DNA of 64,000 nucleotides from Gemmatimonadota bacterium (lineage in GTDB: Bacteria > Gemmatimonadota > Gemmatimonadetes > Gemmatimonadales > Gemmatimonadaceae): positions 124,001-188,000 of the forward strand of contig JAPLKS010000013.1 in the NCBI GenBank assembly GCA_026387915.1, written 5' to 3'. This document shows positions 6,612 to 21,139 of this stretch, one piece after another. The notes beneath the pieces are model-generated. The model was not told the DNA's origin. It did not search any database and saw nothing but the letters and a program-made list of their open reading frames with translations. Within the stretch, counting starts at the first letter, position 1; the number at the start of each line of letters is the position of its first letter. The position numbers and the translations under genes were made by a program.

Positions 6612-6618
6612 AGCGAAA

Positions 6619-6939
6619 CTACTGGAACCGCGCGACCCATGCGGCGAGCGCCACACCGGCCCGCTCCAGCGCTTCGACGTCGCCGCGCAGAAACTCGATT
6701 CCCTTAAGGGCCCCCTTCTCAATATCCTCGGCGATTGCCGCGTATTCCACGGCACCGATGGACCGCGCGCCCCCTTTGATGCGATGCGCCAGCATATTCA
6801 GGGCCTTGGTGTCGCCCGCCTGATGCGCGACAGCAAGGTTCGCGCGGTCTGCCGCATCGCTCCGCACGAAGTCCAGAAGGATTTCCTTCGTGATGGTCCG
6901 ATTGTCGTCGGTCAGGTCGAGCAGATAGTTCGGGTCCAT
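6619..6939 (-). CDS. Stand-alone Hpt (histidine phosphotransfer) protein
   Basis: A 106-residue, helix-rich protein consisting of one Hpt domain. The phosphoacceptor His is in AHRIKGGARSIGA, the HxxKGxxxxxG pattern of Hpt domains. It would shuttle phosphate between a hybrid kinase's receiver and a response regulator in the cytoplasm. It lies 11 nt downstream of the REC-EAL-like gene (6951-8087) on the same strand, so that protein's receiver is the most likely partner. No kinase is adjacent; the hybrid kinases at 48-61 kb are candidates only by inference. The gene ends 8 nt from the convergent MATE gene, leaving almost no room for a terminator. Confidence 0.88.
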   Translation of the reverse strand: MDPNYLLDLTDDNRTITKEILLDFVRSDAADRANLAVAHQAGDTKALNMLAHRIKGGARSIGAVEYAAIAEDIEKGALKGIEFLRGDVEALERAGVALAAWVARFQ

Positions 6940-6950
6940 GCCGACGAGTC

Positions 6951-8087
6951 TCAGCCCGACACGCGCAAGTGCGTCTCGTACGTTTCCGCCGCGCCAGACG
7001 GCTCGCCGACCGCGGCCCCCTGCACCAGATGAACCCGCGCTTCGTGCATCGTGTCGAGCAGCCGCGCCTCATCCACGTTGGTCACACCGACCACCGCGCG
7101 AATCCGGCTCGCGCATTCGTGGACGCGATGCAGGAGCACTGGATCTGATACCCAGCTCGCCGGGCAGGTGATGGTGCTACTCGCCGTGAGGAGGTTCATG
7201 GCGGCGAGGTCTTCCGGCGTCCGGAGATGGACGGTAACGGCGAACTCGTGCATCAGCGCGCGCGCCAACGCAAAGGCCGCCGTGCCCGCGTCTTCGGTAA
7301 ATGCAGCACCCTCGAGCGCAATCGCAAAGGCATGACCGGAAATGCCGTTGATTCGCGCCTGCGCGTGAATCCAGTCGAGCAAATTGTCGTCGCGGAGGGC
7401 CCCGAGGCCAAGTGGCACGATGACCGTCCCGCGCCATCCCATCTGACGCCAGAGCGCGGCACCGAGCATCGCATCGCGCACGATCTGTTTGGCCGCTTCC
7501 GGCGCGGCGGCGAGACGATCCACCGAGGCCAGCGCGGTGATGCCCATGAGGGTTCCGTACTCGCGCGATTCCCAGCGCGGCACGGCCTCAAGCGCCACCG
7601 TACGCAGCGACGTGACATCGAGGATCGGCACATACCACGCCTTGAATTGCTCCATCGCAATACCGCGCTCGAGCCCCGCGAGATCGATGTCGCCGCCGTT
7701 TCCCGACGCGCTCTGCGGATTATTGTGCGCGTGCAACATGGAGGCGAGCGCGTCCTTCCGGATGGGTTTCGCCACGGCTCCGAGCACGCGGAGCCCCGAC
7801 ACCACCGCCAGCGACTCGACGGCGCGCAACACGCTGAGTTCGAGTCCGGACAAAATGATCAGTGAATCCGTGAGTTTTTCTTTGGCTAACTGACGAATAA
7901 ATGTCATGCCGTCCATGCCCGGCATATTCAAATCACTGAGGACGACATCCGGGCGCTGCGCTCGCGCCGAGACCAGCGCTTCCGCGCCATCGCGGCATTC
8001 GGCGATATCGGTTTGGCCGATGTCGTGCAGCAGGCGCACGGTCATCGAGCGCGTGAAATCGTGATCGTCAACGACCAGAATGTGCAT
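6951..8087 (-). CDS. Response regulator with degenerate EAL domain (RocR/VieA-type architecture)
   Basis: A 378-residue protein with an N-terminal REC domain (about 1-125) having DD, SDLNMPGMDG phosphoacceptor and VAKP lysine motifs, followed by an EAL-like domain (about 140-370). The receiver has the long helix ending GLRVLGAVAKP that characterises RocR/VieA-type regulators. The EAL part is badly eroded: EAL reads EAV, ExTE reads ALEG, the DDFGTG loop is absent and the metal and general-base residues cannot be found. It is therefore unlikely to hydrolyse c-di-GMP; it may bind a ligand or a protein when phosphorylated. An AT-rich stretch at 8134-8151 may hold its promoter. It pairs with the downstream Hpt gene. 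Confidence 0.87.
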   Translation of the reverse strand: MHILVVDDHDFTRSMTVRLLHDIGQTDIAECRDGAEALVSARAQRPDVVLSDLNMPGMDGMTFIRQLAKEKLTDSLIILSGLELSVLRAVESLAVVSGLRVLGAVAKPIRKDALASMLHAHNNPQSASGNGGDIDLAGLERGIAMEQFKAWYVPILDVTSLRTVALEAVPRWESREYGTLMGITALASVDRLAAAPEAAKQIVRDAMLGAALWRQMGWRGTVIVPLGLGALRDDNLLDWIHAQARINGISGHAFAIALEGAAFTEDAGTAAFALARALMHEFAVTVHLRTPEDLAAMNLLTASSTITCPASWVSDPVLLHRVHECASRIRAVVGVTNVDEARLLDTMHEARVHLVQGAAVGEPSGAAETYETHLRVSG

Positions 8088-8204
8088 GGGAGGAGCGAGT
8101 TGGTGGAACAGTCCGGGGAGCAGGAGATCGACAACTTATAAATATAATCCTGCGAGCAACCCTTTAGGAAAAAGAGCCACGTTCGGCCGTCGCGTGACCG
8201 CGTC

Positions 8205-9509
8205 CTAGGCCAGCTCCCGCCCCCGCGTCTCCGGAATCCAGCGCCAGGCCAGCGCCGCCAGCAGAAAGGCCGCGCCACTCACGGCAAAGGCCGCAAAGAA
8301 CCCGCGCGAGGCAGCCAATGTTCCGACAATAAAGGGCGCCGCCGCACTGGCCACGCGCCCCAAGTTGTACGTGAACCCCTGGGCGGTGGCGCGAATCTCC
8401 GTGGGGTAAATCTCGGCCGTCAGTGCGCCGAAGCCGCTGTAATAACCCGTCCCGAAGAATGCCACGAGCGGTCCGAGGGCCAAGAGCACCACGGGCGATC
8501 GCATGGCGCCGTACAGTGGCAACAGCACACTCGCCATCAACAAAAACGAGATGTAGGTGCGTTTGCGGCCGGCCGCGTCGCCGATGTAGCCAAAGGAGAT
8601 GTAGCCGAACCACATCCCCACCTGCATGGCGAGCACGAGCCCGCTCATCACGGCCGTACTCACCCCAATGCCACCCTGCGTGGTGGGCAACGAGAGATAC
8701 GCGGGGATCCACGTATTGAGCCCCCACCAGCCGAAGAGCGTGCACGCGTTCATGAACGTGACGGCGATCGTAATGCGGCGTAACGGGCCACGAAAGAGAT
8801 CGCGGAACCCAGGCGCGGGTGTAATCGCGTCCGCATTCGGCACGGCAATACCCGCAGCGCGGTCGGCGGCATCCTTGGCGCGCTTTGCTTTTCGCTCGAG
8901 CCAAAGCGGCGGTTCTTGCACGTTGCGCTGCACCCAAAACACCAGCAACGCCGGGAGCACGCCAACAAAGAACACCGCGCGCCATCCGAAGCGCGGCAGC
9001 ACAATCCACGTCACAATCGCGGCGGCGCCGTAGCCAATGGCCCACGCACTCTGCATCAAGCCCATCGCGCGGCCGCGGTGTTTGGACGACCAGTGCTCCG
9101 ACACCAGCGCCGCACCGCTCGCCCATTCGCCGCCCATGCCGATCCCGAGGAGCACGCGGCAGGCCGCAAACTGCGCGAGGTTCTGCGCCAGCCCGCACAT
9201 CGCCGTAAAGACCGAGTACAGGAGCACGCTCGCCATGAGGGCGCGCGTGCGTCCGAATTTGTCGGCAATGAATCCAAAGAAGATGCCGCCCGCAGCGGCC
9301 GCCAGCAGTGTCGCTGACCCCATCAACCCGGCCTGCGGCTTGGTGAGGCCAAGGTCCGTGATCACCGAGGCGAGCACCATCGCATAGAGCATCACGTCGA
9401 ACGCGTCGAGCATCCAGCCGAACGCCGCCGCCATCAGTGCTTTGCGTGCCGCTGGGGTGCCGGCATGCCACCATCCAAAGAACCCTTCTTCGAGTGCGGT
9501 GTCGGTCAT
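8205..9509 (-). CDS. MFS permease of the aromatic acid/sialate symporter type
   Basis: A 434-residue 12-helix MFS transporter. It has GFIADKFGRTRAL between helices 2 and 3 (motif A), RVLLGIGMGGEWASG in helix 4, and ends with the RWIPETRG motif. These match the sugar-porter-related and aromatic-acid:H+ symporter (AAHS) families. The ATG at 9509 overlaps the paaD stop by 4 nt, making it the last gene of the paaABCD operon, so import of phenylacetate or a related aromatic acid is the natural guess. The frame remains open upstream to 9569, but that extension overlaps paaD and has no membrane character. Confidence 0.87.
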   Translation of the reverse strand: MTDTALEEGFFGWWHAGTPAARKALMAAAFGWMLDAFDVMLYAMVLASVITDLGLTKPQAGLMGSATLLAAAAGGIFFGFIADKFGRTRALMASVLLYSVFTAMCGLAQNLAQFAACRVLLGIGMGGEWASGAALVSEHWSSKHRGRAMGLMQSAWAIGYGAAAIVTWIVLPRFGWRAVFFVGVLPALLVFWVQRNVQEPPLWLERKAKRAKDAADRAAGIAVPNADAITPAPGFRDLFRGPLRRITIAVTFMNACTLFGWWGLNTWIPAYLSLPTTQGGIGVSTAVMSGLVLAMQVGMWFGYISFGYIGDAAGRKRTYISFLLMASVLLPLYGAMRSPVVLLALGPLVAFFGTGYYSGFGALTAEIYPTEIRATAQGFTYNLGRVASAAAPFIVGTLAASRGFFAAFAVSGAAFLLAALAWRWIPETRGRELA

Positions 9510-10006
9510 AGCGGCTTGAACTCGTCGAAGGGTTGGCGGCAGCCACGGCAGACGTGAATCGCCTTGCACGCGGTGGATCCGAATTCACTCTGCAATACCG
9601 TGTCACGCGATCCGCAGTACGGGCACACCGCCGCCGCACGGCGGCGCGTGAGCGTCACGAGCCCACCAGCCTCGACGGGCACAGGCGGGGCGATGCCGAA
9701 CTTTCGCAATTTTTCGCGCGCGTCGGGGCCAATCCAATCCGTGGTCCACGCGGGCGAGTACACGGTGCTGATGCGCACCTCGTGAACGCCGCGCGCGGAG
9801 AAGGCCGCACGGATGTCGTCTTCAATCACGCGCATCGCCGGGCAGCCCGAATACGTCGGCGTAATCGTCACCGTCACGCCGCCGTCCCCTGCCACTGCGT
9901 CGCGCACGATCCCAAGCTCCACGATACTGATCACAGGCACCTCGGGGTCTTTGACCTCTTCGAGAATGCCGAACAGCTCATCGCGCGTGAGCGCGGGGGT
10001 GCTCAC
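9506..10006 (-). CDS. paaD: Phenylacetate-CoA epoxidase maturation protein PaaD
   Basis: A 166-residue protein with an N-terminal DUF59/MIP18-like domain (about 1-110; DPEVPVISIVELGI and TPTYSGCPAM with its conserved Cys). Its C-terminal zinc-ribbon-like tail has two Cys pairs (CPYC and CRGC). This is the PaaD architecture; PaaD is needed for an active PaaABC(E) epoxidase, probably for metal-centre assembly. The start is GTG at 10006, overlapping the paaC stop by 4 nt (GTGA). It lies between paaC and the MFS permease in one operon. Confidence 0.93.
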   Translation of the reverse strand: MSTPALTRDELFGILEEVKDPEVPVISIVELGIVRDAVAGDGGVTVTITPTYSGCPAMRVIEDDIRAAFSARGVHEVRISTVYSPAWTTDWIGPDAREKLRKFGIAPPVPVEAGGLVTLTRRRAAAVCPYCGSRDTVLQSEFGSTACKAIHVCRGCRQPFDEFKPL

Positions 10007-10797
10007 CAGCTGGCGCCGGGATGCGACCGTGCCACAATCTGCATTTCAGCGAGCATGTGCCCTAAATGCTCGGTGTGGCGTCCGCGACGCCCACCCGTGA
10101 CCATCGGCCCAGGCGCCGCCGGCACCACGAGCGTGGCCTCGCGCAGCACGCCGTCCACCAGCGAACGCCAGCGCGCCGCGAGTGCGTCGTGGGGCACAAT
10201 AATGCCCAGCGCGGCGACGGCATCATCAACAGCGTCACGCTCGAACAGCTCACCCGTGTAGCGCCACAGCGCGTCGAGCGACGCCTGCACACGCGCGTGG
10301 CTCTCGGCTGTGCCATCGCCAAGCTTCCGCATCCACTCGCTGGAATGGCGCACATGATACGTGTCTTCTTTGATCGCTTTGGCGGCGATGCCAGCCAGCG
10401 TGGCGTGGCCGCATGACGCGAGCGCTTCCCACACGAGGACGCTATAGCAATCAAAGAGGAACTGCCGGACGATGGTGAACCCAAAATCCCCAATGGGCAG
10501 TTCGGTGATCTGCGCGTTGCGAAACTGGGTTTCGTCACGGAAATACGCGAGGGCATCATCGGAGCGCCCCTTCCCTTCGACGTCTCCAGCAAGCGCCAGC
10601 AATGCCGACGCCTGCCCGGTGTAGTCGAGCGCGATATTGGCGAGGGCAATGTCTTCCTCGAGAATCGGGCCGTGACCGCACCACTCGGCCATGCGGTGGC
10701 CGATCACGAGGCGGTCGTCACCGAGCCGCACGAGAAACTCAAACAGCGGATTCTCGACAGAGGTCGAGCGCGGTCCTGCGGGCGACGTGGCGCTCAA
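10003..10797 (-). CDS. paaC: Phenylacetyl-CoA epoxidase structural subunit PaaC
   Basis: A 264-residue ferritin-like four-helix protein. The start (NPLFEFLVRLGDDRLVIGHR), the segment ALANIALDYTGQA and the later EDTYHVRHSSEW are PaaC hallmarks. PaaC is the non-catalytic di-iron-fold homologue that forms the stable PaaAC core of the phenylacetyl-CoA 1,2-epoxidase. The most likely start is TTG at 10797, overlapping the PaaB stop (TTGA) by 4 nt. This unusual start codon is supported by the same 4-nt overlap at every other junction of the operon. The length is close to the family norm (about 250). Confidence 0.93.
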   Translation of the reverse strand: MSATSPAGPRSTSVENPLFEFLVRLGDDRLVIGHRMAEWCGHGPILEEDIALANIALDYTGQASALLALAGDVEGKGRSDDALAYFRDETQFRNAQITELPIGDFGFTIVRQFLFDCYSVLVWEALASCGHATLAGIAAKAIKEDTYHVRHSSEWMRKLGDGTAESHARVQASLDALWRYTGELFERDAVDDAVAALGIIVPHDALAARWRSLVDGVLREATLVVPAAPGPMVTGGRRGRHTEHLGHMLAEMQIVARSHPGASW

Positions 10798-11081
10798 AAG
10801 ACTTTCACTCCCTTGGGCACTTTATAGAACTGCGGATGCCGATAGGCTTTGTCGTTGCCGGGATCGAAAAAGGGGCCGGCGTCACTCGGAGCAGACGCGA
10901 CAATGGCCGCGGCTGGGACAACCCAGAGGTTGATGGCTTCGCCGCGGCGTGCGTACACGTCCCGTGCGTTCTGCATCGCTTGCTCGGCGTCGGCGGCGTG
11001 CACGCTGCCGGCATGCTCGAATGGCTCGCCTTGGTCACCCTGCGTGAACACTTCCCATAGCGGCCACTGGCTGTCGGTCAT
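10794..11081 (-). CDS. paaB: Phenylacetyl-CoA epoxidase subunit PaaB
   Basis: A 95-residue protein beginning [20 protein letters not shown], the conserved PaaB opening, and containing [12 protein letters not shown]-like and INLWVVP segments. PaaB bridges PaaAC heterodimers in the epoxidase complex. The start at 11081 (MTDSQW) overlaps the paaA stop by 4 nt. The frame is open to 11255, but that extension overlaps paaA entirely and has no homologous character. Length matches the family (about 95 residues). Confidence 0.93.
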
Positions 11082-12070
11082 GCGGCCTCCGTCTTGTGCG
11101 TCATCTTTTTCTCCGCATGAGCCGTCGCGGCCTCGCGCACCCACTGTCCGTTGTCGTGCGCCGCGCGTCGCGCCGCAATGCGCTCGCGGTTGCACGGACC
11201 GTTGCCACGAATCACCTCGTTGAACTCCGCCCAATCGATCGCGCCAAACTCCCACTCCTCAGTGGCAGCATTGTACGTGAGATCGGGATCCGGCACCGTG
11301 AGTCCCACGGCCTGCACCTGCGGAATCGTGAGATTCACAAACCGCTGACGGAGTTCGTCATTCGTCTTGCGCTTGACCTTCCAGCGCAGGAGCTCACCCG
11401 AGTTGGGCGAGTTGGTATCCGACGGCCCAAACATCATGAGCGACGGCCACCAGAAGCGATTCACGGAATCCTGCACCATGGCCCGCTGCGCTGGCGTGCC
11501 CTTGGCGAGGGTCGCCACAATCTCGTAGCCCTGACGCTTGTGGAAGTTCTCTTCCTTGCAAATGCGGATCATCGCGCGGGCGTACGGGCCGTACGATGTT
11601 TTGGCGAGGATCGTCTGGTTCACGATCGCAGCGCCGTCCACGAGCCAGCCGATGACGCCCATATCGGCCCAACTCAACGTCGGGTAGTTGAAGATGCTCG
11701 AATACTTCGCGGTGCCATTGAGCAGCTGCTCAACGAGGTCGTGCCGGTCTACGCCGAGCGTCTCGGTGCCGCAGTAGATGTAGAGCCCGTGCCCGCCTTC
11801 ATCCTGCACCTTGGCAATGAGCGACATCTTGCGGCGCAGGCTCGGCGCACGCGTAATCCAGTTCCCCTCGGGAAGCATCCCGACCACTTCCGAGTGGGCG
11901 TGCTGGGACATCATCCGGATGAGCTGTTTGCGATAGCGCTCCGGCATCCAATCTTTGGGCTCGATGGACTCGCCGGCGGCGATGCGAGCGTCAAAGGCGG
12001 CTTCGCGCGCTACATCGCGGGCCGCTTCGGCGGACGCACCACTGGCGAGTTCTGGGGGATTCGGCATCAT
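11078..12070 (-). CDS. paaA: Phenylacetyl-CoA epoxidase catalytic subunit PaaA
   Basis: A 330-residue ferritin-like di-iron oxygenase subunit. Iron-ligand motifs are visible: [12 protein letters not shown] with Glu and His, and [10 protein letters not shown] with the second Glu/His set. [15 protein letters not shown] and the C-terminal INxAEF-like WAEFNEVI are also typical. PaaA, with PaaB, PaaC and a reductase, converts phenylacetyl-CoA to the ring 1,2-epoxide with O2. It is the first gene of paaA-B-C-D-MFS; two ATGs are adjacent (12070, 12067). Only 52 bp separate it from the divergent hydratase gene, so both promoters must be there. The usual reductase gene paaE is absent from the window. 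Confidence 0.95.
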
Positions 12071-12122
12071 TCCACTAATCTAGAGTTCTTCCAGTCTTTC
12101 GACAATCGAACCAATCCCTGCT

Positions 12123-12902
12123 ATGACGGCCCACGACCAAGGTTCCGCTGCGTCCGGTGGAGTCGTGACCTCGCACCACGCGGGCGTCGCGACCATCACT
12201 TTTGAGCACCCCAAGGGGAATTCGCTCCCCGCCGCCCTGCTCGCACAACTCGCACGCGCGGTGGAGACGGAGGGGCGCAACCCTGAGGCTACGGTGATCG
12301 TGCTCCGCAGTGGTGGCCGCGGGCCGTTCTGTGCAGGCGCCTCGTTTGATGAACTCGTGGCGGTGGACACGCCCGACGCCGGCGCCGAGTTCTTCAGTGG
12401 ATTCGCGCGGGTCATTCTTGCGATGATCCGCGCGCCGAAGTTCGTGGTCACGCGAGTGCACGGCAAAGCGGCCGGCGGCGCCGTGGGGCTCATTGCGGCC
12501 TCCGACTATGCGATTGCCGTGGCGACGGCCCCGGCCAAGCTCAGCGAACTCGCCGTGGGGATTGGCCCGTTCGTGGTGGGGCCGGTCATCGAAAAGAAGA
12601 TTGGCCTAGCGGCGTTCGGCGCCATGTCGGTGGACGCGGATTGGCGGAGCGCCGAGTGGTGTGCCCAGCACGGTCTGTATTCCGCGGTGGCGGCGGACGA
12701 AGCGGCGCTTGACCAGCAGATGGACGCGCTGGCCACCACGCTCGCCGGGTCGAACCCCGATGCGATGCGCCTCATGAAGGAGGCGTTTTGGGCCGGTACC
12801 GAGGGATGGGATGCCCTGCTCGCGGACCGCGCGCGGATGAGCGGTACGCTCGTGCTGAGTCCGTTCACGCGCGCGGCGATCGCGCGGTTCCGGCAGCGAT
12901 AA
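12123..12902 (+). CDS. Enoyl-CoA hydratase/isomerase family protein
   Basis: A 259-residue crotonase-fold protein. It has the CoA-binding and oxyanion segments (GRGPFCAGASFDEL near residue 65 and HGKAAGGAVGLIAASDYAIA near residue 115). The segment where hydratases carry their catalytic Glu reads LSELAVGIGPFVVGPVIEKK, which is only partly canonical. The protein is likely to act on an enoyl-CoA or an isomerisation step of the phenylacetate pathway (PaaF-like position) because it diverges from paaA by 52 bp; the exact reaction is an inference. It converges on the dehydrogenase-like gene ending at 12951. Confidence 0.8.
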   Translation: MTAHDQGSAASGGVVTSHHAGVATITFEHPKGNSLPAALLAQLARAVETEGRNPEATVIVLRSGGRGPFCAGASFDELVAVDTPDAGAEFFSGFARVILAMIRAPKFVVTRVHGKAAGGAVGLIAASDYAIAVATAPAKLSELAVGIGPFVVGPVIEKKIGLAAFGAMSVDADWRSAEWCAQHGLYSAVAADEAALDQQMDALATTLAGSNPDAMRLMKEAFWAGTEGWDALLADRARMSGTLVLSPFTRAAIARFRQR

Positions 12903-12914
12903 GGCCTTCAATAG

Positions 12915-12946
12915 CAGCGCGCGCCTCAGTGCAAGCACGCGCTGCG
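12915..12946. terminator. Weak hairpin between converging genes
   Basis: An 8-bp inverted repeat (gcagcgcg and cgcgctgc) around a 16-nt loop lies between the converging hydratase and dehydrogenase-like genes. It has no T-tract on either side, so it is at best a weak or Rho-assisted terminator. Confidence 0.35.
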
Positions 12947-12950
12947 ACCG

Positions 12951-14132
12951 CTACACCACATCCCCGTAAAGTCCCACCACGGCGTCCTCAAACGATTCGA
13001 CGAACCCACCCGTGCGCACGCGCTCGGTGGCTTCAAAGCCGGCCACTTCAAGCCGTTTGGCCGCTTCGTACAGGGTGTGCACGTCGAACGGCAATCCGAC
13101 GAGGTGCGCCATGTATTCCTCGACGGCGGTGAGATAGCCCATCATCCCGCCGAGTTCGGTGGGCGCGTAGACTTTGCCGGCGTCGCGCAGTTGGAGTGCG
13201 AGTGCGGCATCCGGCATCACCATGTTCTCGGATCCACACACCACGCGGAGACGGGGATTGGCACCGCACGCCTGCACCGCAATTGCGTCGAGCGTGCCGC
13301 CAGCGGCGTTGACCGCAACGGCATCCATGGGCAGCGCGAGAAATGCGACTTTGTCGTCTTTGCCCCACGTGCGAATCCCCATCGCCTCGAGTTCGGCACG
13401 ACGCTCCTCACGCGCTTCCATCGCGAGCACCGTCGCTCCGGCGGTGCGCAGACACTCGAGCATATGCATACCAATATTGCCGCAGCCGAGGAGCCCCACG
13501 GTGGCACCGCGCATGTCGCGGCCGAGCGCGCGCAGCATGCCGTGAAGCAGTTGGTAGTTGCCTTCGCCCGTCGGCTTTGACGTATCGGCGACGACGCTGC
13601 CCTTGTAGCGCGCATTGAGATACGCCAGCGAGGGCGTCACGCCGTCGAACATCGTGCCGTGCCCGAGGTCCTGCCCCGTGGTGAGATAGATGCCAGCCGA
13701 CGCTTCCATGTCTTTTAAGCACGCGACGGCCCAATCAAGCATTGCCGCATCGCGGGGTTGACCCACGCGTGAATCGGATGCGGGGACGAGCACACACTTG
13801 CCGCCGACAATGCGCGTCATGTCGCGCACGGCGAGCGGGCCGCCGACTTTGATGACGCGCGACCAGTGCACCTTTTCTTCCATTCCCATCGCAAGACCAA
13901 TGGCCTCGCGGTCCGGCGTAAAGCCTGGTGCCGAGGTGCGCGATTCCGGCGCAATGCGAAAGCCGCCGAGCGAGAGTTTGTGCGACCCGGGCTCCGCGTG
14001 GGTGGCAATGCTCAGCGTCCAACCGTTGGCAGCGTCGTGGTACTTATAGACCCAGACGTTGGGGTTACGGGTCGCGGCGAGCTCGGGGACGAGTGCGCGA
14101 CTCGCAACGGGGTCCAGCACTTCCTTATGCAT
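12951..14132 (-). CDS. Divergent Glu/Leu/Phe/Val dehydrogenase-like protein
   Basis: A 393-residue protein with the two-domain look of amino-acid dehydrogenases. The N-terminal half has LSLGGFRI, an EEKVHWSRVIKVGG segment and IVGGKCVLVP, resembling the GG-R, MTYKNA and GGGK motifs, with the GGK lysine kept. The C-terminal half is an NAD(P)-binding Rossmann domain with GLLGCGNIGMHML and a conserved CGSENMVMP stretch where family members have GAANNQL-like sequence. The start at 14132 (MHKEVL) is chosen because the 84-residue open upstream part lacks structure. The opening HDAANG and ATHAEPGSHKLS are unusual, so the substrate is open. It sits beside the transhydrogenase genes. Confidence 0.65.
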   Translation of the reverse strand: MHKEVLDPVASRALVPELAATRNPNVWVYKYHDAANGWTLSIATHAEPGSHKLSLGGFRIAPESRTSAPGFTPDREAIGLAMGMEEKVHWSRVIKVGGPLAVRDMTRIVGGKCVLVPASDSRVGQPRDAAMLDWAVACLKDMEASAGIYLTTGQDLGHGTMFDGVTPSLAYLNARYKGSVVADTSKPTGEGNYQLLHGMLRALGRDMRGATVGLLGCGNIGMHMLECLRTAGATVLAMEAREERRAELEAMGIRTWGKDDKVAFLALPMDAVAVNAAGGTLDAIAVQACGANPRLRVVCGSENMVMPDAALALQLRDAGKVYAPTELGGMMGYLTAVEEYMAHLVGLPFDVHTLYEAAKRLEVAGFEATERVRTGGFVESFEDAVVGLYGDVV

Positions 14133-14378
14133 GGCAGACGTACCGAGTAGGCGGTGGCGGCAGGATTGTGACGGTGAACAATCGCCCCTGGGACGTCCGG
14201 AGACAATCAGAGGAAATGCCCGCCGAAGCGGCCGTTTGTGGGGAGAACGCTGACACAACGAAGGGCATCTCGGCATTTGTCGTGAGCAAGCCCCGTACTG
14301 TAGATTTAGGGGTTGTAGCCGTATCGGCGCGCTGCTCGCTGTGCGCGCCCAAAACCGACCCTCGAACCCGTTCGATCC

Positions 14379-15482
14379 ATGCATATAGCTGTCCCACGGG
14401 AACGTGCCGAGCGCGAAGCGCTCGTGGCCCTGGTTCCTGAGAGCGTCGCCAAACTCGTCAAGGCCGGGGCAACGGTCGCCGTCGAGTCGGATGCCGGGCT
14501 GTCCGCCGGTTTCTCTAACGCCCAGTACGAGGCCGCCGGGGCGACGATTGCCGCAGACTTTGCCGCCGTCGTGACCGGTGCTCGGTTGACCTGCAAGGTG
14601 CAGCCACCGACGACCGCCGAATGCCGCGCGCTTCCCGAGGGGAGCGCGCTTGTGAGTTATTGGGCCCCCGCGGGTCAGCCTGACGTGCTTGCGGCCCTCT
14701 CTGGTCGCAAAATCTCCTTGCTCGGCATGGAGCGCGTGCCGCGTATTACGCGCGCGCAGTCCATGGACGTGCTGAGCTCACAGGCGACCGTCAGCGGCTA
14801 CAAAGCCGTGCTGATGGGCGCCGGCGCGCTCCCCAAAATGCTCCCGATGCTTTCAACCGCCGCAGGGACGCTCGCACCGGCCAAGTGCTTTGTGATTGGC
14901 GCGGGCGTGGCTGGGTTGCAAGCGATGGCCACCGCCAAGCGCCTCGGCGCTTTGGTGAGCGGCTTTGACGTTCGCCCCGCAGCGCAGGAGCAGATTCAGT
15001 CGCTCGGCGCCACGCCGCTCAAGATTGAGCTCACCGCCTCCGCTGAAGGCAGCGGTGGCTACGCCAAGCAGCAGAGCGAGGAAGATGCGCGCCTCACACA
15101 GGCCGCCATCGCCAAACATCTCGAACAGATGGATCTCGTGATCACCACGGCCGCGATTCCGGGCCGCAAAGCGCCGATTCTGATCCCCGAAGACGCGGTG
15201 CGCGGCATGAAGCCGGGCTCGGTGATTGTAGACCTCGCGGCTGAAACCGGTGGCAACTGTTCGTTTACGAAGGCCGGCGAAACGGTCGTCGCCCACGGCG
15301 TCACCGTCCTCGGCCCGCTCAACCTGCCGAGCACCGCGGCGTTCCATGCGTCGCAGATGCTCAGCCGCAACTTCCTCACATTCCTCCAGCACATCACGAA
15401 GGACAACGGGATTGTGCTCGACGCCACGGACGAGATCACTGGCCCGATGCTGGTGACGCACGAGGGACAGGCCGTATCATGA
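14379..15482 (+). CDS. pntAA: Proton-translocating NAD(P)+ transhydrogenase, alpha-1 subunit (NAD-binding)
   Basis: A 367-residue soluble dI subunit. It has the AlaDH/PNT N-terminal domain starting IAVPRERAEREALVALVPE, the RITRAQSMDVLSSQ segment, the NAD-binding fold with FVIGAGVAGLQAMATAKRLGA, and IIVDLAAETGGN-like VIVDLAAETGGN. It passes hydride between NADH and NADP+ on the dIII domain of PntB, driven by the proton gradient. This three-subunit arrangement resembles that of Rhodospirillum rubrum. The ATG of pntAB overlaps its stop by 4 nt. The 246-bp upstream region contains no recognisable gene and presumably the operon promoter. Confidence 0.96.
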   Translation: MHIAVPRERAEREALVALVPESVAKLVKAGATVAVESDAGLSAGFSNAQYEAAGATIAADFAAVVTGARLTCKVQPPTTAECRALPEGSALVSYWAPAGQPDVLAALSGRKISLLGMERVPRITRAQSMDVLSSQATVSGYKAVLMGAGALPKMLPMLSTAAGTLAPAKCFVIGAGVAGLQAMATAKRLGALVSGFDVRPAAQEQIQSLGATPLKIELTASAEGSGGYAKQQSEEDARLTQAAIAKHLEQMDLVITTAAIPGRKAPILIPEDAVRGMKPGSVIVDLAAETGGNCSFTKAGETVVAHGVTVLGPLNLPSTAAFHASQMLSRNFLTFLQHITKDNGIVLDATDEITGPMLVTHEGQAVS

Positions 15483-15784
15483 CCCAGATCTTCCAGCTCT
15501 ACGTCTTTATTCTCGCGGGCTTCATCGGCTTCTTCGTGATTTCGAAAGTCCCGCCCCTGCTCCATACGCCGTTGATGTCGGCGACCAACGCGATCTCCGG
15601 CATTTCGCTCGTGGGCGCGATCGTCGCCGCCGGCGGACAGTACGGGAAGGTCTCCACGATCCTCGGCTTCATTGCGGTGATCTGCGCGGCGACGAACGTG
15701 GTGGCCGGCTTCCTGATTACCGACCGCATGCTCGCGATGTTCGGCGGTCCCAAGAAGTCCGCGACGACGGAAGGTGCCAAGTGA
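15479..15784 (+). CDS. pntAB: NAD(P)+ transhydrogenase, alpha-2 membrane subunit
   Basis: A 101-residue membrane protein with about three transmembrane helices, including FILAGFIGFFVISKVP and the conserved PLMSATNAISGI segment of the dII domain. It forms part of the proton channel together with the PntB membrane domain. It overlaps both neighbours by 4 nt (ATGA at its start, GTGA at its end), so the three subunits are translationally coupled. Confidence 0.95.
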   Translation: MTQIFQLYVFILAGFIGFFVISKVPPLLHTPLMSATNAISGISLVGAIVAAGGQYGKVSTILGFIAVICAATNVVAGFLITDRMLAMFGGPKKSATTEGAK

Positions 15785-17250
15785 CCTACGGACTTTTGGT
15801 TCTCGTCGCCGATTCCTCCGCTGCGATGGGCGCGCAGGATTTGTTTGTGCAGGGTTCGTACCTCGTGGCCTCGATTCTGTTCATTCTTGGCCTTCGGTCG
15901 CTCACGCGCCCAGCGGATGCGCGACTCGGTATGCAGCAGGCCGCCCTCGGCATGTTGTTCGCCGTGGTGGGCACGCTGCTGAACCATGAGATCATCACGT
16001 ATCAGTGGATCATTATCGGTTTGGTCATCGGCGCAGCGGCCGGCTATCCGATGGCGATGAAGATCGAAATGACGGCGATGCCGCAGTTCATTGCGTTCTC
16101 ACACGCCTTTGGTGCGATTGCCGCGACGCTGGTGGGCATCGTGGAATACCGCCACGCGTATGCGCCCGGCGCTGAAGGGCTCACGCCCGGACTCACCGGC
16201 GGCACGGCAGCGGCGCTCGGCTTTGAAGTGCTGTTCGGCGCACTGACGGTGACGGGCTCGTTCATGGCGTTCGGCAAGCTGCAGGAACTGATTACGGGAC
16301 GCCCGATCACGTTCAAGGGACAGAACGCACTCAACCTGCTGTTGATGGCAGTGGCGTTTGGCTGCCTCACGATGCTGGTACTCCACCCGGAAACAGCCTG
16401 GGCGTTCTACGCGATGGTGGGCCTCGCCCTGTTCCTTGGCGTGTCGATGGTGCTGCCGATTGGCGGCGGTGATATGCCAGTGGTGGTCTCGCTGCTCAAC
16501 TCGTACGCCGGCCTCGCGGCCGCGGCGACCGGCTTTGCGATTGGCAACAACGTGCTGATCATTGCTGGCGCGCTCGAGGGCGCGGGCGGATTCATCCTCT
16601 CGATGATGATGTCGAAGGCCATGAACCGGTCCTTTGCCAACGTGATCTTCGGAGCCTTTGGCGCCACCCCTGCGAGCAGCGCCAAGAAGGCTGGCGAGGC
16701 CCGCGAGTCGAAGACCATCACGCCGGAAGATGCGGCACTCCAGCTCGCCTACGCGGGCTCGGTGGTGATCATCCCGGGCTACGGCATGGCCGTGGCACAA
16801 GCGCAGCACGTGTGCCGCGAACTGCACGAGCTCATCCAGAAGAAGGGTGGCGACGTGAAGTACGCCATTCACCCGGTGGCCGGCCGTATGCCCGGACACC
16901 TCAACGTCATTCTCTCGGAAGCTGGCATCGACTACGGCGCCCTGCTGACCGACGTGGATGACGCCAACCGCGTGCTCAACACCGCCGACATCGCGGTGAT
17001 CATCGGCGCCAACGACATCGTGAATCCGGACGCCGAAGACGACAAGGGCAGCCCGCTCTACGGCATGCCCATCTTCCGGCCGTGGACTGCTCGGACCGTA
17101 TACGTGATCAAGCGCGGCAAGGGCACCGGATTCTCCGGCGTTGAGAACCCGCTCTTCTTCAAGGACAACACGCTCATGATGTACGGCGATGCCAAGGGCG
17201 TGCTGGGCAACTTGATCAAAGAGATCAAGGCACTGGACGAAGGGCACTAG
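15781..17250 (+). CDS. pntB: NAD(P)+ transhydrogenase, beta subunit
   Basis: A 489-residue PntB. About nine transmembrane segments (residues 20-270; note IGGGDMPVVVSLLNSYAGLAA) are followed by the NADP-binding dIII domain (about 300-489) with IIPGYGMAVAQAQH, HPVAGRMPGHLNVILSEA, GANDIVNPDA and KRGKGTGFSGVENPLF. The start is GTG at 15781, overlapping pntAB by 4 nt. With PntAA and PntAB it generates NADPH from NADH and the proton-motive force. A strong hairpin terminator follows 20 nt after the stop. Confidence 0.96.
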   Translation: MTYGLLVLVADSSAAMGAQDLFVQGSYLVASILFILGLRSLTRPADARLGMQQAALGMLFAVVGTLLNHEIITYQWIIIGLVIGAAAGYPMAMKIEMTAMPQFIAFSHAFGAIAATLVGIVEYRHAYAPGAEGLTPGLTGGTAAALGFEVLFGALTVTGSFMAFGKLQELITGRPITFKGQNALNLLLMAVAFGCLTMLVLHPETAWAFYAMVGLALFLGVSMVLPIGGGDMPVVVSLLNSYAGLAAAATGFAIGNNVLIIAGALEGAGGFILSMMMSKAMNRSFANVIFGAFGATPASSAKKAGEARESKTITPEDAALQLAYAGSVVIIPGYGMAVAQAQHVCRELHELIQKKGGDVKYAIHPVAGRMPGHLNVILSEAGIDYGALLTDVDDANRVLNTADIAVIIGANDIVNPDAEDDKGSPLYGMPIFRPWTARTVYVIKRGKGTGFSGVENPLFFKDNTLMMYGDAKGVLGNLIKEIKALDEGH

Positions 17251-17329: not shown

Positions 17330-17911
17330 CTACGGCTTCCGCACGCCGCCGGTGCCTTCGTATTTCATGACATCTTCGTAGAGCGCCTTCACCGACTCGG
17401 TGTTCCGGATGCGCTCGAACAGTTGCTCCTGGCTCTTCAGCTGATCTAAGAACCGCTTGCCCGCCACCGGGAACGGCAGTTCCATCAGCACCCAAACGCG
17501 GTACTGCCCCGCTTCGATGGCAAACTGCTGCTCCTTGGCCCGCGTTCCCACGAGCACGGAAGCCACGGCAGCCTTCGTGACCTGCGAGTACGCATCACGC
17601 AGCGTGGCGTCGCCCAATACGCCCGCTTCTTCAGTCGCGCGCGTGGTGAGTGCGCCGAGTTTGACCTCGAGTTGCGCAGCCAACACCGAACGCCCTTCGA
17701 CCTGCGCCTTGTTGACCGCAACCTGCAGATCCTGCGACGTCGCTGTCGCCGGCGCATAGACGTACTTGTTGTCGCTCGCCGGTGGCTTTTTATACCAATT
17801 CGGCATGGCCTTCAACGTGCGCGCGCTCGCGGGCCCCTCCTCAAGCGTCGGGGCCGACGCACACGACATCGCCAATACGGCCAATCCCAGTACTCCCCAT
17901 GACTGTCTCAC
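17330..17911 (-). CDS. LPP20-family lipoprotein
   Basis: A 193-residue predicted lipoprotein. The signal peptide ends in a lipobox-like VLAMSC with Cys at residue 17. A central region with NKAQVEGRSVLAAQLEVKL and a later YRVWVLMELP strand match the LPP20 fold, where a helix rich in A/R is followed by a strand ending in a V/L-rich edge. The start is GTG at 17911 with GGAGG a few bases upstream. It is the third gene of a cassette with the FlgT_N/DUF4384-like protein (37 nt upstream) and the caspase-like protein. The molecular role is unknown; membrane anchoring of the cassette is an inference. Confidence 0.75.
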   Translation of the reverse strand: MRQSWGVLGLAVLAMSCASAPTLEEGPASARTLKAMPNWYKKPPASDNKYVYAPATATSQDLQVAVNKAQVEGRSVLAAQLEVKLGALTTRATEEAGVLGDATLRDAYSQVTKAAVASVLVGTRAKEQQFAIEAGQYRVWVLMELPFPVAGKRFLDQLKSQEQLFERIRNTESVKALYEDVMKYEGTGGVRKP

Positions 17912-17948
17912 CGTCCCTCCACGGTTTCTCTACTGTAGTATCGGTCGC

Positions 17949-18851
17949 CTACGGCACCTTCTGCACTTCAATGGCAACCTGAGCCACCGCCCGCTGGTCC
18001 AGCGGGATCCCCACCAGCCACTTATTGAACTCTCCGAGCGTCAGGACGCCGGTATCGCGCCCCTGACCATTCCCAGCACCGGAAAACAGCGGCACTGGCC
18101 GCAGGGTTGCGACCACCGCCAACAGCTCCGAACGCGATGCCACACCGGCTGGCAACGCGGCCCGGAAGCGGATGCCCGCCTCTCGCGAGGCGGCATCCGG
18201 CACTTCCACCGTCGCACCCGGCGCCGCTTCTGGCGCCTCCACATACGCACTCGGCGCGAGCACGAACACCGAGTCATCTACAATAATCACTACCGTGAGC
18301 GTCGCGCGCTTGGTTGCCGTGATCCGCGCCACCAACTCGTCGTTCCCCTTCAAATCGGCACCGCGCACACGCAAGCGGTCGCTGTTGGGCTGCACACGCA
18401 CCGTGAAGCCCGCGTCCGCTGTGCCAGCCTCGCGCTCTACCCGCACACGCACAATGAGGTGATACACCACCGCGGCGCTCTTCGTGCCCGGCTTGGCGGC
18501 GCTCCACTCTTCTTTGACAACTGTCCACCCCGTCGCGCGCCCAGCAGCATCGAGGCGAACTGCCTCAGCGTAATGGTCCACCACACGTCCAGCAGAATCG
18601 GTACGCGACGAAAACTCCGTCCCCTGCACGCGAACACCAGCGACGCGACGCACGGCCTCCGCGATCGCACCGTAGAGCGCGTCGCGTTTGACGTCGTCGG
18701 ATGAGCGCGATCCCACCAACGGCTCATAGCGCTCCACCTCGACCCACGTGCCCTGTGCACGGATGGTCCCCGCGAGCGAGCATAGCAAGCACGCCGCAGT
18801 GAGTAACATCACGCGCAACCGCACCGGGAGCCCTTCGTGGCGCACCGTCAT
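17949..18851 (-). CDS. Secreted FlgT_N / DUF4384-like protein
   Basis: A 300-residue secreted protein: a signal peptide (about 1-33, ending AGTIRAQ) is followed by two regions. Residues about 35-150 look like the FlgT N-terminal domain: a helix AIAEAVRRVAGVRV, then alternating strands that end VVYHLIVRVRVE. Residues about 150-300 look like DUF4384, with a strand-rich core, a TVEVPDAAS turn and an ALPAGVASRSELLAVVATLRP closing strand pair. The ATG at 18851 overlaps the stop of the caspase gene by 4 nt, so translation is coupled to it. DUF4384 domains often accompany caspase-like peptidases, which supports a joint function. No catalytic residues are visible. Confidence 0.7.
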   Translation of the reverse strand: MTVRHEGLPVRLRVMLLTAACLLCSLAGTIRAQGTWVEVERYEPLVGSRSSDDVKRDALYGAIAEAVRRVAGVRVQGTEFSSRTDSAGRVVDHYAEAVRLDAAGRATGWTVVKEEWSAAKPGTKSAAVVYHLIVRVRVEREAGTADAGFTVRVQPNSDRLRVRGADLKGNDELVARITATKRATLTVVIIVDDSVFVLAPSAYVEAPEAAPGATVEVPDAASREAGIRFRAALPAGVASRSELLAVVATLRPVPLFSGAGNGQGRDTGVLTLGEFNKWLVGIPLDQRAVAQVAIEVQKVP

Positions 18852-21067
18852 GGCAGCTCCACTAACACGCGCCCTTTATTTCGCGCCAAGGCCTGCGGCA
18901 GCTGCTCGCGATCCTGCCGCGCGGCCTGCGGCGGCACCTTGGCGCGCAGAAACTGTTCGAGCTCGCTCACGGTCACGCGGCGATCGGTGTCGGCATCGGC
19001 TCCACCGCGCAGCCCCTTGAGGAGCCAGTAGGTGAAGAGACCGTGCCGTTCGTCGGCGGACACATTCGCGAGTTGGTCTGCGCCGGATGCCGTGAACACC
19101 GCCATCGACTCACTGCGCAGTGCCGGATGTTCCACGCTCACGAGCACATCACGCGCGCCAGGAAAGAGCGATCCGCCCTCGCGCGTGCCGCCGCTGAAGC
19201 AGGCGTCAATGAACACCGTCACCGAATGCGCACCGAGTGCGGCGAGGCGTTGATAGAGTTCGTCGAGCGCGTATCCCGTCTGCGCCGGATAGTTGGCGTC
19301 GGCATCGTTAGGGAGCAAATAGGGCGCGTGCGTCTTGAGATCGGCCACACCGTGACCGGCGTAATAGACCACCACGTCCGTCTCGGCGCTTACCCGGCGT
19401 GCGAGCCATCCGCCGGCGCCGAACACTTTGCGCAGTTCGCTGCCGGTGAGTTCGTCGTCGGTGCGGAAGAACAGACGGTCGGCGTCGTCGCCAATGCCAA
19501 AGAGCCGTGTGGCGTATTCGCGGAACACCGAGGCGTCGCGCCGCGCGAACGGCACGGCTGGCGCATGCTGATACCGTTCCACGCCGAGCACCACCGCTAC
19601 CACGTTGCGCCGTTCGCGTCCGCGGGGAATGCCGCTGTCCACGTCCACCACGAGCGGCGGCGAGGCGGTGACGGCGCGCGTGTCGCGGGCACGTACCACC
19701 AGATCGGGCACACTCGCGAGCGGGCGATCGAGCGCCAGTGGCAGCACGAACGTGGTATCAAAGCGTTCGCGCGCCTCGTGCACCAAAAGCGAAAGCGGGA
19801 AGCCGTCGGCGCGCGAGTTGGTGAACGCGGTGAGGTGCACGTCGCGCACCTCGCCCGCGTGCAGTGTGCCGAGCGCAACGTCGCGGACCGTTTCGGGGGT
19901 GAGGAGGACGCCCGCGCCTGGCGTGATGGTCACGCGCACCTCGCGCGCATCCCCCGCTCCGCGGTTGGCAATGCGTGCGGTGATATCCACAATCTCGCGC
20001 GGCTCAATGCGCCCGTTCCCCGACTGATCGGCCACGCCAATGCCGTCGAGCACAAGGCGCGGCGCGCGCGCGGCGCGTGTACGCACCACGATGCGAAATG
20101 GCGGGTCGAGATCAAAGCCGTTGTCCTCGCGCACGGTCACATCGAGCGGTAGTTCGCCGTCGCCGACCGTGGCACCGGCGGCAATCTGCGCACGGAGGGT
20201 GACGGAGCGGCCCGGGAGAATCGAGTCGGCGCGCGCGGCAGAAACGATGCGCACGGCCGCGTGCGCGCCCGGCGACGTGATGGCGAGCGTGGCACCGTAT
20301 GCGGTCCCCTTGCCGTCGTTCCGCAGCACCACGGTGACGACGGCACCTTCTTCGGCATCGAGCACGCCGTCGTTGCCGTCGTCCACCAGCGTGGCGGTTG
20401 CGGAGAGCGACGCCGGGGCGGTGGGATGTGGGGCGAGGTGCTGCGCCACTGCGCCTGCCGCGCGCACGTGCAGGGTGCGCGCGGGATCGTCCCAGGCACG
20501 GACTTTCCTGTCCGCCACATTCACACGCACCACCGCGCGACCGTAGCGCAGGAACTGCTCACCAACGTCGGCGCGCTCCTGCACGGCGGTCGGGGTTCCC
20601 TCAAGCCGCAGCAGATCGTCGCGCGAGGAGCCCACGGTGAAGGTGGCTTCGCGCGTGGTGTCGGCGCCCGGAGCCATGCGCACCTTGAGCGACCCGGCGT
20701 TGAAAAAGCCCACCACGCGATCTTCGCGGGAGCCGAGGCGGACCCAGCTCTCGCCAAAATGCCACACCTCGTACCCCAGCGAGGTAAGGCGTTCGACCAT
20801 CGCGGGCTTTCCCTGCACCTGCTCCACCAGGGTGGACGGGGAGCCCAGCGTCCAGTTCTTCTGTGCCTGAAGCGGCGTTGGTGCCAGGACGGCAACGGCT
20901 AGGAGGGCGCCGGTCAGGGCGCCGGTCAGGGCGCCGGTCAACACGCCGGTCAACACGCCGGTCAACACGCCGGTCAGGACGCCGATCTGTGCGCGCAACA
21001 TCCCCCCGCCGGACAGGCGGGATTGGAAAGCAGGGCGAGGACCGGATACACGCATCACTCGGAGCAT
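18848..21067 (-). CDS. Secreted caspase-like (C14) peptidase with CARDB-like domains and EF-hand-like loops
   Basis: A 739-residue protein. Residues 1-68 form an extended signal peptide whose hydrophobic core is a VLTG/ALTG tandem repeat (30-53), with cleavage near LQA-QK. Residues 75-200 have a repeated short motif FTVGSSRDDLLRLEGTPT. Two CARDB/Ig-like domains (about 220-330 and 335-445) each contain an EF-hand-like loop (229-240 and 347-358). The C14 domain (485-690) has catalytic His572 in YYAGHG and Cys623 in IDACFSG. A third EF-hand-like loop occupies 691-702. It would be exported to the periplasm or surface and may need calcium. ATG at 21067 is preceded by GGTGAGG. The substrate is unknown. 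Confidence 0.85.
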   Translation of the reverse strand: MLRVMRVSGPRPAFQSRLSGGGMLRAQIGVLTGVLTGVLTGVLTGALTGALTGALLAVAVLAPTPLQAQKNWTLGSPSTLVEQVQGKPAMVERLTSLGYEVWHFGESWVRLGSREDRVVGFFNAGSLKVRMAPGADTTREATFTVGSSRDDLLRLEGTPTAVQERADVGEQFLRYGRAVVRVNVADRKVRAWDDPARTLHVRAAGAVAQHLAPHPTAPASLSATATLVDDGNDGVLDAEEGAVVTVVLRNDGKGTAYGATLAITSPGAHAAVRIVSAARADSILPGRSVTLRAQIAAGATVGDGELPLDVTVREDNGFDLDPPFRIVVRTRAARAPRLVLDGIGVADQSGNGRIEPREIVDITARIANRGAGDAREVRVTITPGAGVLLTPETVRDVALGTLHAGEVRDVHLTAFTNSRADGFPLSLLVHEARERFDTTFVLPLALDRPLASVPDLVVRARDTRAVTASPPLVVDVDSGIPRGRERRNVVAVVLGVERYQHAPAVPFARRDASVFREYATRLFGIGDDADRLFFRTDDELTGSELRKVFGAGGWLARRVSAETDVVVYYAGHGVADLKTHAPYLLPNDADANYPAQTGYALDELYQRLAALGAHSVTVFIDACFSGGTREGGSLFPGARDVLVSVEHPALRSESMAVFTASGADQLANVSADERHGLFTYWLLKGLRGGADADTDRRVTVSELEQFLRAKVPPQAARQDREQLPQALARNKGRVLVELP
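20907..20984 (-). repeat. 12-bp tandem repeat inside the caspase signal peptide
   Basis: Six full 12-bp units plus a half unit. On the plus strand the unit is gcgccggtcagg or acgccggtcaac, with two variant classes. Each unit adds one VLTG or ALTG to the hydrophobic core of the caspase-like protein's signal peptide. The unit length is a multiple of three, so changes in copy number alter core length without breaking the frame. Confidence 0.93.
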
Positions 21068-21091: not shown

Positions 21092-21139
21092 ATCACAAAT
21101 ATACTATGTTCGATATATCGCTAATATCAGCTTTGTGAT
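21092..21139. promoter_or_regulatory. Nested dyad in the AT-rich region upstream of the caspase gene
   Basis: Outer arms atcacaaa (21092-21099) and tttgtgat (21132-21139) share one symmetry axis (21115.5) with a perfect inner palindrome cgatatatcg (21111-21120). The 48-bp element sits 25 nt upstream of the caspase start at 21067, in strikingly AT-rich DNA for this genome. It looks like an operator for a dimeric or tetrameric regulator and overlaps the likely promoter. Confidence 0.6.

Follow-up and report, generated by a model that had tools for sequence, protein, structure and literature searches.

What would a caspase do outside the cytoplasm, and with which proteins would it work there? 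To our knowledge, bacterial caspases have been studied almost entirely as cytoplasmic cell-death or defence proteins. The question is raised by a three-gene set at 17330-21067, on the minus strand of the window, a 64,000-nucleotide stretch (positions 124,001 to 188,000) of contig JAPLKS010000013.1 (C13) from a Gemmatimonadota bacterium with a genome of 3.58 Mb (G000); the titled closest relatives of the window DNA are Gemmatimonadetes. The genes encode, in this order, a caspase, a 300-aa partner protein of FlgT_N/DUF4384 type, for which we use the working name MID, and an LPP20 lipoprotein. We conclude with moderate confidence that the three genes make up a dedicated protease module of the cell envelope and are translationally coupled. 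Throughout, G-numbers are genomes sampled, L-numbers are loci, g2 is a genus label, and A1 and A6 are alignments.

18848..21067, minus strand: exported caspase-fold protease, 739 aa (open reading frame; Peptidase_C14, E = 3e-11; AlphaFold2 model)
17949..18851, minus strand: MID, exported, 300 aa, with an SHS2/FlgT_N-like domain and a DUF4384 beta sandwich (open reading frame, profiles, model)
17330..17911, minus strand: LPP20-family lipoprotein, 193 aa (Pfam LPP20; profile match to the solved LPP20 structure 5ok8, E = 3.7e-6)
18848..18851, minus strand: overlap of the caspase stop and the MID start, 4 nt, ATGA (sequence)

Conservation of the gene set

The coordinates, strand, 4-nt overlap and 37-nt MID-to-LPP20 gap given in the original prediction agree with the open reading frames and the sequence. 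All three proteins had been taken to be exported, and export signals are indeed visible in each of them and in most of their relatives. The overlap of caspase and MID recurs in G057, G091, G170 and G028.

The 200 genomes sampled from the phylum included 24 with the caspase, 13 with MID and 15 with LPP20, and the caspase was present in 13/13 MID-bearing and 14/15 LPP20-bearing genomes (Fisher p about 1e-14). Ten Gemmatimonadaceae genomes have the set; its order is the same in most of them, and the loci are often unrelated. The conserved order of C14, DUF4384 and LPP20 genes that had been proposed as a check is thus found in related genomes. Caspase, MID and LPP20 follow one another in this order in G000, G082, G031, G057, G114, G101 and G155, and across contig breaks in G091 and G089. 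G029 has a gene-sized gap ahead of LPP20, and in G028 and G170 the order is LPP20, caspase, MID, with 4-nt overlaps. The genes flanking the set differ between genera, so that chromosomal synteny alone does not account for its conservation. When ten whole genomes were searched with profiles, MID turned up only beside the caspase, in all ten and usually as the sole copy, and nine of them had a single LPP20 match.

A second sample of 80 caspase loci was picked by caspase similarity alone from genome contigs. These loci span Gemmatimonadota, KSB1, Cloacimonadota, Marinimicrobia/Fidelibacterota, Zixibacteria, Krumholzibacteriota, Latescibacterota, Poribacteria, Bacteroidota, Ignavibacteria, Elusimicrobia and delta-proteobacterial lines. 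MID is present in 40, on the caspase strand in 39/40, and LPP20 in 23; where 3 kb is available on both sides, 24 of 34 loci have at least one partner. Distances among caspases and among MID proteins are strongly correlated (r = 0.89 over 20 loci, 0/2000 permutations; r = 0.90 over 11 non-Gemmatimonadota loci), as would be expected of co-inherited genes. At one locus LPP20 and DUF4384 are fused in a single open reading frame directly upstream of the caspase (L123:2-1957; both above the Pfam cut-offs, with a weak FlgO match), and at L067 an LPP20-like N-terminus stands on the caspase itself (custom profile only). L067 is titled Nanoarchaeota archaeon and carries a bacterial-type cassette; its contig is probably a contaminant in an archaeal bin. 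Twenty-six plasmid records match the caspase; among the matches listed, they do so in the caspase domain only and at up to 35.7% identity, and no plasmid record covers 80% of the query. The cassette as known plasmid cargo was rejected on the ground that the listed matches are confined to this domain.

Several observations concern the surroundings of the set and its variants. Tandem caspase arrays occur with five copies in L046 (G003; 5708-16406), three in L074 and two in L065, some with extra domains; those in L046 and L065 are near LPP20 genes. In G027, a genome with neither caspase nor flgI, there is a 4-nt overlap between an LPP20 homologue and an exported protein of 580 aa that has no Pfam match (L047:5630-7959). 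Kinases of mixed types adjoin the cassette in some loci, such as a histidine kinase in G091 and a Ser/Thr kinase-FGE fusion in KSB1. Large Big_2-repeat surface-type proteins, possible substrates, adjoin it at L043:8242-11097 and L044:1-1626. A transglutaminase-like protein of ~500 aa, exported in most copies, with conserved DCEDR...YPGH...DPTY and a weak Pfam match in one copy, was seen in several phyla:

L058:13272-14909, transglutaminase-like protein
L067:4430-5938, the same
L076:2545-4077, the same
L090:819-2684, the same
L115:3667-5136, the same
L117:4273-5784, the same
L120:2-1369, the same
L129:10807-12273, the same
L130:4404-5888, the same

Promoter and terminator scans gave results at about chance level. 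A nested palindrome lies 5' of the operon and is kept in G082 despite differing spacers; its central element, CGATATATCG, has just 4 occurrences in the whole genome, and the palindrome is possibly the operator of a dedicated regulator.

21092..21139, no strand: operator-like nested palindrome, ATCACAAA-N11-CGATATATCG-N11-TTTGTGAT (sequence)

Domains of the caspase and its partners

The caspase fold was borne out by an AlphaFold2 model built on 39 aligned sequences and compared with known folds by Z score. The model has a mean predicted local distance difference test score (pLDDT) of 80.8, with most of residues 485-739 near or above 90. Its C-terminal domain resembles metacaspase 4 (Z 22.9 over 219 residues, 2.6 Å) and MALT1 (Z 22.4), and Z scores to metacaspases, MALT1 and caspases are about 20-23. 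Pfam Peptidase_C14 matches residues 490-727 (E = 3e-11). The protein scores 74.5 bits, below the 140-bit cut-off of the nearest NCBIfam model (NF047832), and a PDB sequence search with the single caspase sequence gave no match, the family profile being needed.

18851..19615, minus strand: caspase domain, residues 485-739 (Pfam, model, fold comparison)
19352..19354, minus strand: catalytic His572 in the invariant AGHG (39/39 in A6, 18/18 in A1)
19199..19201, minus strand: catalytic Cys623 in DACFSG (38/38 complete copies in A6, 17/17 in A1)
19535..19537, minus strand: Asp511, predicted S1-pocket acid matching TbMC2 Asp95 (38/39 in A6, 18/18 in A1)
19205..19207, minus strand: Asp621, predicted S1-pocket acid matching TbMC2 Asp211 (38/38 complete copies in A6, 16/17 in A1)
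20483..20860, minus strand: residues 70-195, two alpha-beta4 repeats with no Pfam assignment (model secondary structure)
20075..20416, minus strand: residues 218-331, first CARDB-like beta sandwich (model; weak TIGR03900 match over 219-432)
19718..20062, minus strand: residues 336-450, second CARDB domain (Pfam CARDB, E = 4.8e-5; model)
20864..21067, minus strand: signal sequence, residues 1-68, ending in LQA before Q (sequence; in the model disordered, then a hydrophobic helix at 48-61)
20904..20984, minus strand: 12-bp tandem repeat, 6.8 copies, within the signal sequence, encoding GVLTG/GALTG (sequence)

The His572/Cys623 dyad named in the original prediction is conserved in all complete copies, and Gly571-His572-Gly573 is retained in essentially all of them. 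In the type I metacaspase TbMC2, Asp95 and Asp211 provide the acidic groups that bind the side chain of a basic P1 residue (PMC6426788). Because Asp511 and Asp621 are conserved where TbMC2 has these residues (equated by motif position, not by structure superposition), the caspase is predicted to cleave after Arg/Lys, which narrows the earlier suggestion of Arg/Lys or Asp substrates. Two CARDB-like domains had also been proposed. The second is matched by Pfam (residues 346-417, barely above the cut-off); the first is missed by Pfam, yet appears as a beta sandwich in the model. The 12-bp repeat of the signal sequence is absent from the close relative G082 (94% identical). At L054, near 9000-9150, in-frame 12-bp repeats, fewer in L053, lie apparently in the signal sequence of MID (LPFA repeats); signal-peptide length would thus vary in two genes of the same cassette.

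18432..18752, minus strand: MID residues 34-140, beta-alpha-beta4 order, as in an SHS2 fold with an extra beta hairpin of FlgP/FlgT type (model; Foldseek)
17952..18425, minus strand: MID residues 143-300, DUF4384 beta sandwich (profiles, model)
17861..17863, minus strand: lipobox Cys17 of the LPP20 lipoprotein, AMSC (lipobox pattern)

MID had been described as FlgT_N/DUF4384-like, a description of which the DUF4384 part stands at the level of the family. DUF4384 (PF14326) matches 33/37 aligned MID family members (best 4.6e-18); in the window protein it falls below the cut-off (16 against 27 bits, E = 0.013). FlgT_N (PF16548) has no match in window MID and weak ones in 6/37 relatives (best 0.0014), and the match of MID to the FlgT PDB profile is also weak (E = 0.079). 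In the MID model (pLDDT 84), a beta-alpha-beta4 domain precedes a beta sandwich. Foldseek pairs it with 9hmf_A at a probability of 0.99, but with E = 0.025 and a TM-score (template modelling score) of 0.45 on the target; this 106-residue chain of the Campylobacter periplasmic scaffold is, judged from its length, probably FlgP. FlgP, Lpp20 and FlgT have one SHS2 fold, in which a hairpin between the helix and the second strand has been linked to ring formation (PMC12222027). The strand order of MID fits a FlgP-type hairpin insert, in a region of low model confidence (pLDDT about 50-60 at residues 71-100). For the DUF4384 half of MID, VIA-align returned, among the matches listed, only generic beta sandwiches (Z about 8), naming no function. 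The assignment of the third protein as an LPP20 lipoprotein held: PF02169 is marginally above its cut-off (26.1 against 25.9 bits, E = 1.2e-5), 5ok8 is matched by profile, and the AMSC lipobox is in place, the lipobox pattern being present in 34/47 LPP20-profile relatives.

Calcium, substrates, defence and flagella

Three EF-like loops in the caspase had suggested calcium-dependent activation:

20348..20383, minus strand: EF-like loop 1, residues 229-240, DDGNDGVLDAEE (sequence)
19994..20029, minus strand: EF-like loop 2, residues 347-358, DQSGNGRIEPRE (sequence)
18962..18997, minus strand: EF-like loop 3, residues 691-702, between helices 677-689 and 700-717 (sequence, model)

The loops are where they had been placed, and calcium binding is plausible; that all three bind extracytoplasmic calcium, which turns the protease on, we consider improbable. 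The strict EF pattern matches loops 2 and 3, not loop 1, and two strict matches arose in just 2/5000 shuffles of the protein. In loop 3, positions 1, 3, 5, 8 and 12 are canonical, and most relatives conserve the loop; in the family profile, the CARDB region finds 8bl6, a designed Ig domain that contains an EF loop (E = 6.7e-4). However, loop 3 also occurs in about ten caspases from other, non-cassette loci of the phylum, which makes it uninformative here and led us to reject it as a special feature of the cassette, and it is lost in G170 and G028. G029 and G155 have lost loop 1 together with the first CARDB, and in most relatives of other phyla this loop begins with E or P, off the EF pattern. 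Since loops 1 and 2 both lie between beta strands, at the entrances of the beta-sandwich domains in the model, they could just as well bind structural calcium or no calcium. Pfam EF-hand scores of the caspase are far below the cut-off, and the motif Dx[DN]xDG is found in many unrelated folds (PMC3123361). The predicted basic P1 specificity bears on another reading, that the enzyme matures surface proteins by acting on exported proteins. Gingipains, which belong to the same clan as caspases by fold, are Arg/Lys-specific proteases of this kind. The g2 sets run on into the Big_2-repeat proteins, and the exported transglutaminase-like protein stands alongside in 9 loci; the window's own family, however, has no constant adjacent substrate candidate, and we regard a maturation protease as doubtful. 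An anti-phage defence or suicide caspase is highly improbable: the generic caspase model of PADLOC matches (38.7 bits), but the caspase is exported, PADLOC finds nothing in MID or LPP20, no defence genes were noticed nearby, and viral contigs give just three weak caspase matches. With a match that is only generic and so little in viral contigs, we rejected this reading.

Given the likeness of MID to FlgP and FlgT, a flagellar connection was tested with flgI as the flagellum marker. All 10 genomes carrying the canonical set have flgI, and 0/143 flgI-negative genomes carry it (p = 1.9e-6, uncorrected for kinship). In the window's genus the set is present in 4/4 flagellated genomes versus 0/3 others, and in G031 it stands just past the end of a flagellar-chemotaxis cluster (gene names from reading the proteins). 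Together with the SHS2 fold common to FlgP, Lpp20 and FlgT, these observations would fit a flagellum-associated module: LPP20 and the FlgT-like protein would build an accessory disk at the flagellar ring of the outer membrane and bring the caspase to that site. We rate this as quite unlikely; taken at genus level, the link is not significant by our reckoning. A flagellar role cannot be general, because 27 flagellated genomes of the same family are without the set, the rearranged g2 variants (3 genomes) are in genomes without flgI, and flgI is also missing from 6/8 genomes of other phyla with related sets, some of these genomes being perhaps incomplete. A general flagellar role was rejected on the last count, which covers most of the other-phylum genomes tested. 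The restriction of the canonical cassette to flagellated genomes within Gemmatimonadaceae is suggestive of a flagellar tie, not a general one; in this family the set may have a flagellar role.

The proposed envelope protease module and known systems

A dedicated cell-envelope protease module is the reading we favour. Export signals, a complete His/Cys dyad with an acidic pocket and co-inheritance across phyla are apparent at the sequence level. In the arrangement that we envisage, the LPP20 lipoprotein would lie on the outer membrane, facing the periplasm, and MID, through its SHS2-hairpin and DUF4384 domains, would oligomerise on it, by analogy with FlgP and FlgT in flagellar rings. The CARDB domains would dock the caspase on this scaffold, the lipoprotein thereby serving as its putative anchor. 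Crowding, or a signal via DUF4384, would turn the caspase on, and an envelope or surface protein would be cut. Extracytoplasmic calcium may stabilise the loops and need not be a switch. A bolder form of the proposal, which we put forward as speculative and rather unlikely, is that a ring or disk of SHS2 proteins, anchored in the outer membrane and sharing ancestry with the FlgP/FlgT disk of flagella, bears and regulates the caspase as an assembly-driven envelope platform in about a dozen phyla, tied to the flagellum in some lineages. Several points weigh against the module: 37/80 caspase loci are without either partner (some through a contig end), the FlgT_N and FlgT matches of MID are weak, its hairpin is modestly predicted, and interaction, localisation and activity are predicted from sequences and models.

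That an exported caspase is widely conserved and has constant partners in the envelope suggests a second, extracytoplasmic role of the fold, which the small size of the set, three genes, makes testable. Should the partners form a ring, they would also show by what route caspases came to be activated on scaffolds without adaptors in the cytoplasm. The original prediction held that the full set had not been described as a system, and we found no description of a caspase-DUF4384-LPP20 module in the open-access literature, where absence is no proof of novelty. A survey of metacaspase operons noted cell-surface, OmpA or flagellar proteins in some of them (Asplund-Samuelsson et al., 2012; PMC3501461); its main text has no caspase-DUF4384-LPP20 module, and only one Gemmatimonadetes sequence was known at that time, with a dyad that was not intact.

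The window caspase shares with bacterial orthocaspases and metacaspases (PF00656) the fold, the His/Cys dyad, the acidic S1 residues and an EF-like loop in the C-terminal part, and differs from them in being exported, in its two beta sandwiches and in its fixed pair of envelope partner genes. A link between caspases and DUF4384 is known from cyanobacteria and Alphaproteobacteria, where both domains lie within one polypeptide (PMC7475262, PMC6426788), whereas in the present set DUF4384 belongs to an exported protein of its own, together with an SHS2-like domain. With the flagellar disk SHS2 proteins LPP20, FlgP and FlgT (PMC12222027) the set has in common LPP20 by sequence and the beta-alpha-hairpin-beta-beta order of MID; in contrast to them, its FlgT_N similarity is weak, it forms an operon with a protease, and it is also found in genomes and phyla without flgI.

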